Below are positions 59,001 through 61,947 of a DNA stretch of 64,000 nucleotides, one piece after another; the first letter of the stretch is position 1; every line of letters begins with the position of its first letter. Source of the DNA: an uncultured Spirochaetaceae bacterium. Its GTDB lineage: Bacteria > Spirochaetota > Spirochaetia > Sphaerochaetales > Sphaerochaetaceae. Location of the stretch: positions 1-64,000 of the forward strand of contig CALXOL010000002.1 in assembly GCA_944390015.1 (NCBI GenBank). The letters are read 5' to 3'. Below the pieces are notes generated by a model. It made no database searches. It was not told the origin of the DNA and worked only from the letters and a program-made list of their open reading frames with translations. The position numbers were made by a program, and so were the translations under genes.

Positions 59001-60470
59001 TTACTGAACGTCGGTGAGAGCCATGAGACGCTTTGCGACTTCCGTGTTGTCGTATGCTCCATAGAAGAGCTCTGCTCCCTCTCCGAATGCATATACAGGA
59101 ACTGGAAGGCCAGTATGTGCGTAGCTTGTCCAGCCGATTCCTGCCTTGTTGTTGATGATGTGGGTAAGGGTTACAGAGATTGGATTATATCCACCATAGA
59201 GGAGGCTCTCTTCATAGCCGTCTGTGTTTCCTGTAAGAGCGTCGTTGTAAGCCTTCTCAAGGCGTGCATACTCATACTCATCAAGTACGAGAGCGGCAAC
59301 CGGACTATCCTCGCCAGGAGCAACAAGACCGAAGTTCTCTTCAACCATTGCCATAAGGCCAGCGAATGTGAAGTCTCCTTCTGCGATTTCAGCATTCACC
59401 ATCTCATCGAATGCCACATATGAGCACTTCTGGTTCTCAAGGATATCGAATGCGGTGTTGTAACCTGTAGCGGCATATCCGATGGTCATACCACCTGTCT
59501 CGTGGTCACCTGTTACTACAATGAGTGTCTCATCCGGGTGATTCATCGCAAACTCAAGAGCAACTTCGATTGCTTCGTCGAATGCGAGGGTGTCGTTGAT
59601 GTTTGCAACAGCATCGTTTGCGTGTCCTGCCCAGTCGATCTTACCAGACTCGACCATCATGAAGAAACCTGTCTCATTGTAGAGGACGTCGATACCTTTT
59701 CTTACGAAGTCCTTGAGCTGGATCTCATCATCTGTTGCATCAATTGCATATTTCATAGCTCCATCATCCTGAAGAACCGGGCTTACTGCGTATACTTTTC
59801 CTGAATCCGCATTAAGGCTGAGGATCGTGTCTTTATCGTTTGTAACCGTATATCCATTGTCCTGGAGTACTTCATAAAGGCTCTTGTCTCCTTCATCCGC
59901 ACTTAAGAGAGAACCGCCTGCAAAGTAGTCGAAATCACTCTCTGCCATCTGAAGTCCGATGTCATAGTAGTCGTTCCTGGATGCGATATGTGCATAGTAT
60001 GCGGCAGGGGTTGCGTGGTTAAGTGTTACCGTTGATACGATACCGATCTTAAAGTCCTTCTGGTCTCTAAGCTTCTCTGCGATTGTCACACCTTTTGTCA
60101 CGCGGTCAACTCCCATTCCGATTACTCCGCTATGTGTTTTGAAGCCTGAGGAGAGGCTTGTCGCAGTACTTGCTGAGTCAGGGCAGAAAGAGGTCGAATC
60201 CTGTGTGTACTGGATTCCTACTACTGGGAACTGTGTGAACGTGAGTTTATCAAGCTCAATTCTTCCAGGTTCGTTGACTCCTCCAAACACCTGGGCCGCA
60301 TTTGTCTGAGGTGATGACATTCCGTCACCTATGAACATGAAGATGTACTTTGGGCTTGCAGTGCTCGTGTACTCGATTACGGCTTCCTTGGTCTCCGTAG
60401 TCCCCTGTGCGAAGAGGCTGAGAGAAAGAAGGAGAACAGAAAGGAATGCTAATGCTCTTTTAGTTTTCAT
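59001..60470 (-). CDS. phoA: Alkaline phosphatase
   Basis: The 489-residue periplasmic or surface enzyme has a signal peptide (ALAFLSVLLLSLSLFAQG) and the full active site: metal ligand IFMFIGDGMSSPQ, nucleophile Ser in FCPDSASTATSL (near residue 97), SGKIDWAGHANDA and VVTGDHETGGMTI, and the late zinc-ligand His in YAHTGLPVPVYA. It releases phosphate from organic esters using Zn2+ and Mg2+. GGAGG precedes the ATG. A direct repeat resembling a phosphate-regulon box lies 109-126 nt upstream. Confidence 0.93.
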   Translation of the reverse strand: MKTKRALAFLSVLLLSLSLFAQGTTETKEAVIEYTSTASPKYIFMFIGDGMSSPQTNAAQVFGGVNEPGRIELDKLTFTQFPVVGIQYTQDSTSFCPDSASTATSLSSGFKTHSGVIGMGVDRVTKGVTIAEKLRDQKDFKIGIVSTVTLNHATPAAYYAHIASRNDYYDIGLQMAESDFDYFAGGSLLSADEGDKSLYEVLQDNGYTVTNDKDTILSLNADSGKVYAVSPVLQDDGAMKYAIDATDDEIQLKDFVRKGIDVLYNETGFFMMVESGKIDWAGHANDAVANINDTLAFDEAIEVALEFAMNHPDETLIVVTGDHETGGMTIGYAATGYNTAFDILENQKCSYVAFDEMVNAEIAEGDFTFAGLMAMVEENFGLVAPGEDSPVAALVLDEYEYARLEKAYNDALTGNTDGYEESLLYGGYNPISVTLTHIINNKAGIGWTSYAHTGLPVPVYAFGEGAELFYGAYDNTEVAKRLMALTDVQ

Positions 60471-60838
60471 ATATCCTCCGATATTTTAGTTCTGGCATCA
60501 GCATATTAAGCCTTGTACCTTCATGTCCTTTCCATTTTTTGTCAGAAAAATTAATTTTTTCTTTTGCATGCAGAGATTGTTTAAATACCTGTTAATCGGT
60601 TTATATTAGAGGAGATAAGGTATTTTCTTTTTTGTGAAATAAATATAGCCGGTTAATTGGGAAAAGATCCTATTCTGTTGTTTATTTTCTGTTAATTGTA
60701 AATTACTGAAATGTTCTTTTAGGACAAAGCCATTTTAAGCTTATGGTAATTGTTTTCTTCTAATCTTTCCATTTTCCTTTTTACGTGATAGTATGCTAAT
60801 GGCTGATGTAAGCTTTATCATTTTTTTAGGAGAGTTTT
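60471..60838. other. AT-rich intergenic region between phoA and the corA leader
   Basis: This 368-bp stretch has no gene that I can support. It holds the divergent promoters of phoA and corA, several GTTAAT words (60591, near 60655, near 60692) and the phosphate-box-like repeat noted separately. It is much richer in A and T than the flanking genes. Confidence 0.5.
60579..60596 (-). promoter_or_regulatory. Phosphate-box-like direct repeat upstream of phoA
   Basis: Read toward phoA the sequence is TTAACA, 5 nt, TTAAAC, an 11-bp period. PhoP boxes in Bacillus are TTAACA-type repeats with the same spacing. Only two units are seen. Confidence 0.3.
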
Positions 60839-60886
60839 ATGGACGACGGTAGTTATCCTTTACCTAGCAGGAACTATTTCTTTTAA
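60839..60886 (+). CDS. Leader peptide upstream of corA (15 codons)
   Basis: The ORF encodes MDDGSYPLPSRNYFF and has an excellent ribosome-binding site (AGGAGAG at 60828-60834, 4-6 nt from the ATG), better than that of corA itself. It stops 47 nt before corA. The acidic start and Pro-Leu-Pro recall the proline-rich mgtL leader that controls the Mg2+ transporter MgtA in enterobacteria; corA there also has a short leader ORF. The stop codon overlaps the 5' arm of one of two competing hairpins. Function is inferred from layout and composition. Confidence 0.6.
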   Translation: MDDGSYPLPSRNYFF

Positions 60887-60928
60887 TCCGTCGGATGCTC
60901 TTGAACGTCCCTCGGATTTGTGGGGCGT
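60885..60928 (+). promoter_or_regulatory. Mutually exclusive hairpins in the corA leader
   Basis: Hairpin A pairs AATCCG (60885-60890) with CGGATT (60913-60918). Hairpin B pairs ACGTCCC (60905-60911) with GGGGCGT (60922-60928), one G-U pair, and covers the G-rich region just before the corA ATG at 60934. The arms interleave, so both cannot form as simple nested helices. A ribosome stopping on the leader ORF would mask the 5' arm of hairpin A and favour B. Confidence 0.5.
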
Positions 60929-60933
60929 GAGAA

Positions 60934-61947
60934 ATGATTGTAAAAAGAACAGATTTAACACCAAAGCAGAATTATACTTGGATTGACGCAAGGAATATTG
61001 ACCGTGATGACATCGCGGTTCTTACGGATGAGTATATGATTCCTTCCGAGGTTCTTGCGGATATCATGGACCAGGATGAGCAGGCAAGAATAGAGAAGGA
61101 GGATGATTATACCGTAATCATCTGCCGTCTTCCCAGCGATGAGGAGGATGAGGATAATCCCCTTGTAAGGACGTGTAGCCCTTTAGGTATCGTTCTTTTC
61201 TCCGATAAGGTCGTGACAATTACGAAAGAGGACAGTGTAGTAATCGATGATCTGGCAAGGCGACGTGTGCGCTCCTGTCCGGTAGATACGAAGGAAGGTC
61301 TTGTAATCTCGATTCTTGGGCGCTCCGCACTGGTTTACATCAGGCTTCTGAAATATATAAACAGACAGAAGGATCTTGTTGAGGAGCAGCTTCAGAAGTC
61401 AATCATGAACTATGAGCTGATACAGCTGTTGCAGATTCAGAAATCCCTTGTATATTTCACGACAAGTCTTGCCGGTAATGAGATTCTGCTGGAGAAGCTG
61501 CAGAAGACCCCGTTCTTCAAGCTTAACAGTGAGGACGAGGAGGAGTTTCTGGAAGATGCCATCACCGATAACAAGCAGGCTATTCAGATGGCGAACATAT
61601 ATTCGGACATTCTCACGGGAACCATGGATGCGTTTGCATCCGTAATCGGAAACAACATGAACATAATCATGAAGCGTCTTACCGTAATATCGCTTTCACT
61701 CATGTTCCCTACGTTCATTACCGGATTCTTCGGTATGAACATCCACATCCCGGGCATTGACGGTAAATGGGCATGGCTGGTGCTGACCATAGTCTGTATC
61801 TTGGTCTCGGTTCTTGGATCTTACCTTATCAGTGATAAGCGGAATAAGCTTTTGCTGAAGGCGAACAGCATCAAGAAGAAGAGCCCGTCAGAGAGGAAAT
61901 ACCTGGCAAGAAAGCGCCAAGTGCTAAAAGGAGAAGACAAGGACTGA
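60934..61947 (+). CDS. corA: CorA-family magnesium/cobalt transporter
   Basis: The 337-residue protein has a large cytoplasmic N-terminal domain with long helices (SALVYIRLLKYINRQKDLVEEQLQ) and two C-terminal membrane helices separated by the signature GMN (FFGMNIHIPG, near residue 267). It forms pentameric channels for Mg2+ or Co2+/Ni2+. The start has only a G-rich, GTGAG-type ribosome-binding region, which lies in a hairpin, so expression is likely controlled through the leader ORF at 60839. The 3' end lies 3 bp from a convergent gene. Confidence 0.93.
   Translation: MIVKRTDLTPKQNYTWIDARNIDRDDIAVLTDEYMIPSEVLADIMDQDEQARIEKEDDYTVIICRLPSDEEDEDNPLVRTCSPLGIVLFSDKVVTITKEDSVVIDDLARRRVRSCPVDTKEGLVISILGRSALVYIRLLKYINRQKDLVEEQLQKSIMNYELIQLLQIQKSLVYFTTSLAGNEILLEKLQKTPFFKLNSEDEEEFLEDAITDNKQAIQMANIYSDILTGTMDAFASVIGNNMNIIMKRLTVISLSLMFPTFITGFFGMNIHIPGIDGKWAWLVLTIVCILVSVLGSYLISDKRNKLLLKANSIKKKSPSERKYLARKRQVLKGEDKD

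Follow-up and report, generated by a model that had tools for sequence, protein, structure and literature searches.

Results

Organization of the corA locus

The window, by which we mean the whole 64,000-nucleotide stretch of DNA that was analysed, comes from a member of Candidatus Ornithospirochaeta, and the nearest named corA locus (96% identical) is that of Ca. O. stercorigallinarum. It carries corA (60934–61947, + strand; ATG at 60934), which encodes a Mg2+ transporter of 337 amino acids with the GMN motif (PF01544, E 6e-53), the only CorA of the genome. An alkaline-phosphatase-like gene (59001–60470, − strand) is divergent from corA, and the two have a common intergenic region with the leader promoter inside it. 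An extended −10-like promoter element, TGATAGTAT (60786–60794, + strand), is recognizable from its sequence upstream of the leader ORF described below, and of the 43 MD-type leaders in the genus, 39 have a TGNTANNAT-type element no more than 75 nt ahead of their ATG. In the window, a small inverted repeat, GGCT..AGCT (60800–60815), lies between the −10-like element and the Shine-Dalgarno (SD) sequence of the leader, with counterparts elsewhere in the window's clade (GGCTTTTGGAAGC in L031 and GGCTTTTAAAAGCT in L002). No Rfam riboswitch or leader RNA reached the gathering score in the window, the M-box model was not matched, and no intrinsic terminator was found in the corA leader region.

A conserved leader ORF precedes corA

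A 15-codon ORF, MDDGSYPLPSRNYFF (60839–60886, + strand; ATG at 60839, stop codon TAA at 60884–60886), stands before corA and is preceded by the SD sequence AGGAGAG (60828–60834, + strand); both this ORF and its good ribosome-binding site, to which an earlier note on this DNA had drawn attention, can be read directly. Conservation within the leader is highest at the acidic pair Asp2-Asp3 (60842–60847, + strand), which is followed by Pro-Leu-Pro at codons 7–9 (60857–60865, + strand), and a strong SD sequence is found in nearly all relatives. Such a leader precedes all 30 of the first corA loci of the genus, with the pattern M-D-[DE]-G/S..PLP, a free tail and a length of 14–28 codons. Including other genera (Bullifex, Sphaerochaeta, Pleomorphochaeta and further ones), it was found in 90 distinct corA upstream regions, examples being MSVSDDGGSITPLPSN.., MSTKDDGNPLPSY.., MSDDSGSPLPR.., VKTTNDDSNPLSR.., VKRQSEEANPHPDS.. 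and, in Sphaerochaeta, MSVSDDGGSITPLP.., and it is present at essentially all Sphaerochaetaceae corA orthologues examined. The conservation in related spirochaetes that the earlier note had called for is thus seen in these 90 upstream regions and extends to other families. A strict finder (SD, acidic pair and PxP) recovered 76 of the 90 upstream regions versus 0.06% of dinucleotide shuffles, and the acidic pair alone recovered 88 of 90 versus 1.3%; across the 59 upstream regions of long ORFs in the window, corA was the sole match of the leader finder. Conservation is limited to approximately the first ten residues, while the C-terminus and the length drift. In Sphaerochaeta, the leader tails (e.g. 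L054–L066) contain a near-invariant TCCTC(C), read as Ala-Ser-Ser codons, that is complementary to the corA SD sequence and to the 3′ arm of hairpin A.

The leader N-terminus is constrained as protein

The first core residue is Asp or Glu in 90 of 90 leaders (GAC 68, GAT 17, GAA 5), and the second is acidic in 88 of 90 (GAA 34, GAC 30, GAT 21, GAG 3). The proline codons of the leaders vary among CCT, CCC, CCG and CCA and the leucine codons among TTA, TTG, CTG and CTA, with synonymous changes at glycine as well. Over the five core codons, single-base differences comprised 1157 synonymous and 994 non-synonymous changes, as compared to 525 and 1626 expected, an omega-like ratio of 0.28 for sequence pairs that are not independent of one another. 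Because synonymous change is in excess in these codons, it is the amino-acid chemistry that has been kept and not the DNA alone, and comparison of the sequences shows the leader N-terminus, i.e. the acidic pair, usually followed by PxP, as a segment under protein-level selection. The earlier note had taken the acidic and Pro-Leu-Pro content to suggest a parallel with the enterobacterial leaders. Pro-Leu-Pro by itself is not decisive, as PxP (or PLS) is present in 79 of 90 leaders and has been lost in several genera, which keep the acidic pair without it (MSTSDDGGSIRYRP.., MSNTDDGGSREHIL..). This pattern does not conform to a proline-codon attenuator of the mgtP kind, in which the proline codons are indispensable. 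No NCBIfam or Pfam family matched the leader peptides.

Leaders beyond the family

More diverged leaders (types MPDPDS.., MDPDGS.. and MNDSDGGS..) lie before corA orthologues (29–53% identical) of seven other Spirochaetia families: f36 (MPDPDSCSRQDIPPFLR.., MPDSDGHSSQSPIPLIR.., MDPDGSCPSPISF.. and MPDPDS..), f45 (MPDDSSSCSDLSIPPIRR..), f2 (MNDPDGSSHPHIR..), f33 (MNDSDGGSRSRL..), f18 (MSDSDGSLCLHD..), f23 (MSDPDGGSPRL..) and f20 (MDETPGSRRRLNFF..). Since each of these families is represented by few sequences, chosen by eye among the listed ORFs, they constitute weaker evidence than the leaders within the family. They were located solely via corA; when 395 genomes of the class were searched with a pattern matching the DNA of DD/DEGGS leaders, only chance matches were obtained outside the family. 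Across the class the core shifts to DPD, DSD, EEA, TED or NDDS and is acidic throughout. Some corA orthologues, those of family f39 and of L069, have no leader, and none was found upstream of distant CorA paralogues (19–26% identity).

Lachnospiraceae have a conserved leader ORF of their own, M[DE][SG]GPSPR.. (MESGPSPR..), which is located 20–91 nt upstream of corA in 17 of 30 loci (L271–L284, L292, L298, L299), as compared to 1.9% of shuffles. It resembles the spirochaete leader in its acidic residue 2, in GPSP at the start and in its position before corA, and differs in its core and in being restricted to 17 of the 30 loci. Conservation extends to the DNA of its core, GGGCCTAGTCC, which makes a role at the RNA level possible. 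The occurrence of an acidic, proline-containing leader before corA in this family suggests that the principle recurs.

Two mutually exclusive hairpins connect the leader to the corA start

Hairpin A pairs 60885–60890 with 60913–60918, as the earlier note had it, and is longer than was described there, extending inward past a 2x2 internal loop through 60893–60897 and 60906–60910 (5′ arm 60885–60897, 3′ arm 60906–60918, + strand), for a total of 11 bp and −13.9 kcal/mol versus −4.0 kcal/mol for the outer part alone. Hairpin B, also present as noted earlier, is formed by 60905–60911 and 60922–60928 (+ strand; 7 bp, −11.4 kcal/mol), and its 3′ arm, GGGGCGT, covers the GGGG within the ribosome-binding region of corA. 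Because both hairpins need bases 60906–60910, the competition that had been proposed between them is direct and not just topological. The inner stem of A is equally clear in close relatives (GGACGC/GCGUCC in L031 and L032, GGAUGUGA/UCACGUCC in L033), and stem A is stronger than its shuffled arms (mean z −2.0 over the 90 sequences and −2.9 in the window's clade). The 3′ arms of hairpin B in relatives (GGGGCGUGA, GGCAUG, GGGGCGUGG, AGGGGCC, AAGGACACA and GGAAGGACGUG) each complement their own 5′ arm.

The overlap between the leader stop codon (60884–60886) and the 5′ arm of A (from 60885), another element of the earlier description, is part of a geometry kept in the 90 sequences: this arm spans or abuts the stop codon, with its start at a median of −25 and its end at a median of −2 from the end of the stop codon, and in 90% of sequences it begins at least 13 nt past PxP. 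The 3′ arm of A mostly ends 9–23 nt before the corA ATG. Given the geometry of the 5′ arm, a ribosome positioned at Pro-Leu-Pro would leave A free, whereas one finishing the leader would cover its arm.

Covariation and folding of the stems

Compensatory changes in both stems, which the earlier note had singled out as a check, were found in a partner-swap test, in which the arms of each sequence were compared with arms swapped between species, using a single representative from each cluster below 80% identity. The permutation, which ignores deeper relatedness, gave p values of 0.00065 (window's clade) and 0.00005 (Sphaerochaeta and kin) for stem A, and of 0.00005 in both groups for stem B. Three control pairings were negative (A 5′ arm with B 3′ arm, 0.51; 5′ part of the leader with A 3′ arm, 0.98; corA with A 3′ arm, 0.41), and a fourth, the 60 nt upstream of the leader with the A 3′ arm, gave p 0.013. 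In the MDEG clade, the other clade of the genus, the stem A core GC[CT]TT[CT] and its complement are near-invariant and kept in 26 of 26 sequences, and the outer pair covaries (G-C 12, A-U 10, U-A 1); stem B of this clade (group E), which has a few short pairs and arms that hardly vary, did not covary (p 0.87). When stem B was compared with shuffles using coarse segments, the result was significant in 37% of Sphaerochaeta-type sequences and hardly elsewhere. MAFFT/RNAalifold performed poorly on mixed clades owing to positional drift of the arms.

When a ribosome was placed at Pro-Leu-Pro or at the stop codon, equilibrium folding revealed no consistent shift in the accessibility of the corA SD sequence (43 of 90 sequences; mean 0.41 versus 0.41). 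In the window, A (−13.9 kcal/mol) and an extended form of B (−14.1) are nearly equal in energy, and kinetics would therefore decide between them.

Discussion

The leader and hairpins of corA can be understood as a cis-acting translational attenuator that responds to low Mg2+, a reading that we consider fairly probable as a whole and whose sensing step, ribosome destabilization, is modelled on mgtL and mgtQ. The anatomy of the switch, comprising the leader ORF, the constraint on it, the exclusive stems and their geometry, is well supported by the comparative data, and these data likewise support describing the locus as corA preceded by a leader peptide and switchable hairpins; sensing of Mg2+ by ribosome destabilization we infer more weakly, by analogy. 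When the leader is translated through to its stop codon, the ribosome would cover the A arm, B would form, and the corA start would be hidden and the gene off. If ribosomes abort or stall on the acidic and proline codons, or never start, the A arm, at least ~13 nt downstream, would be left free, and formation of A would break B and allow corA to be translated. The signal may be low free Mg2+, acting through the intrinsic destabilization of ribosomes by the acidic nascent N-terminus, as in mgtL and mgtQ; conversely, high Mg2+ would permit full leader translation and keep corA off through B. The loop would be closed by its output, a Mg2+ importer. Counting against this reading are the shortness of the acidic run (two residues as compared to EPDP), the loss of PxP in several genera, the corA orthologues that have no leader, the failure of equilibrium folding to show a consistent shift, the lack of stem B covariation in one clade and the low p value of one control pairing.

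The same leader and hairpins might instead work through an arrest peptide of specific sequence whose signal is a ligand, a translation factor (EttA-like or EF-P) or low charged tRNA-Pro, which we think unlikely, if deserving of attention. Within the family the DDGGS core is rather literal, beyond what a mere charge rule needs, PxP is frequent (79/90), and in E. coli MgtL is acted upon by EttA (PMC11282234). Class-wide, however, the core shifts (DPD, DSD, EEA, TED, NDDS) yet stays acidic, as fits a rule of charge and proline; the loss of PxP in several genera argues against a counter of proline codons, and the gene downstream is always a Mg2+ importer. A switch of opposite polarity, in which leader translation turns corA on by opening a structure where a C-rich ORF arm masks the corA SD sequence, appears quite improbable. 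It would account for the complementarity between TCCTCC of the Sphaerochaeta ORF and GGAGGA of the corA SD sequence, a pairing that RNAalifold prefers, but this pairing never varies and so yields no covariation, while the ORF arm covaries with the A 3′ arm, upstream of the SD sequence, and not with the B 3′ arm (p 0.51); moreover, the corA start in the window is masked by B and not by the ORF arm.

That the leader is a small functional protein standing before corA by coincidence would explain the conservation of its N-terminus and SD sequence, but conservation is confined to some ten N-terminal residues, the C-terminus and the length vary freely, the C-terminal codons also carry stem A, and no protein family was matched, all of which renders this very unlikely. 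Although 5′ UTRs often contain short ORFs and hairpins, a chance ORF with ordinary hairpins is scarcely credible here, given a leader conserved across families, its rarity in shuffles (0.06–1.3%), the constraint on the core codons and the covariation of the stems.

Returning to the translational attenuator, its closest published counterpart is mgtQ of Salmonella, in which translation of mgtQ is reduced by its acidic codons and the mgtB ribosome-binding site is hidden or freed by two exclusive sets of stems (PMC8092293). Both systems involve a short ORF with a strong SD sequence and acidic residues near the start, control at the level of translation, and alternative stem-loops that include one occluding the SD sequence of a Mg2+ transporter gene. 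We count as a further likeness that replacement of the acidic codons of mgtQ moves leader and transporter expression in opposite directions (PMC8092293). In contrast, mgtQ has 8 codons and is part of an operon, where it precedes a gene for a P-type ATPase; there is a further stem, 1:2, with which its ORF overlaps, and mutation of the start codon lowers mgtB. The spirochaete leader is near the mRNA 5′ end, before corA, contains PxP and belongs to another phylum.

The mgtL peptide begins MEPDPTPLPRRR... Like the spirochaete leader, mgtL of Escherichia and Salmonella has its acidic residues and prolines close behind the start and has alternative mRNA folds, and its efficient translation lowers the Mg2+ importer, as the switch proposed here would (PMC11282234; PMC11552253). 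With its EPDP motif, mgtL loses ribosomes at low Mg2+, and it works on Rho-dependent transcription termination (PMC11282234), whereas the spirochaete leaders carry DDG(G)S or DPDxS and the hairpin reaches the SD sequence of the gene. The corL leader of Escherichia and Salmonella also is a short ORF before corA with two exclusive folds (PMC11552253), and in E. coli its translation is inversely related to corA (PMC11552253), but it has a UUG start in E. coli, few acidic or proline residues and a Rho-dependent mechanism, and no DD..PLP core has been described for it. The spirochaete locus thus has the marks of the mgtQ/mgtL kind, namely a conserved short ORF with a good SD sequence directly before a Mg2+ transporter gene, N-terminal acidic residues under selection, often with PxP, and exclusive, covarying stems with a predicted link to expression. 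Homology to mgtL or corL was detected neither as a leader RNA (Rfam, window) nor as a peptide family (NCBIfam/Pfam); we suggest that the leader works like mgtQ and mgtL and do not claim common descent.

No paper on a spirochaete leader of this kind was found in a literature search that lacked most subscription journals, and in the papers found ribosome destabilization as an ion sensor is described solely for enterobacterial leaders. In many spirochaetes, the ribosome itself probably reports low magnesium and switches the uptake gene on, judging by the enterobacterial precedents. If this is true, the presence of a chemically similar leader throughout a class outside the enterobacterial phylum, where it controls translation of a different Mg2+ transporter, would point to a general sensor principle, and approximately 100 natural variants would be at hand for learning which residues destabilize ribosomes. 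A broader proposal, which we advance tentatively and hold to be slightly on the doubtful side, is that Mg2+ sensing by aborted translation of an acidic, proline-containing leader is a widespread and recurrent form of CorA control at translation initiation, old in Spirochaetia (eight families) and with a different core in Lachnospiraceae (MESGPSPR..), in which only the switch topology and the charge and proline chemistry of the nascent peptide are conserved.

For the spirochaetes, the leader represents a defined candidate Mg2+-response element. In the window's own genome no MgtE was found, and P-type ATPases are present but none reaches the MgtA cut-off; because this genome is ~95% complete, the absences of MgtE and of a second CorA are not final. 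With a single CorA and no MgtE found, CorA may be the main route of Mg2+ entry, and the switch may govern that entry. The genome also encodes bL31, a protein that counters ribosome destabilization in E. coli.
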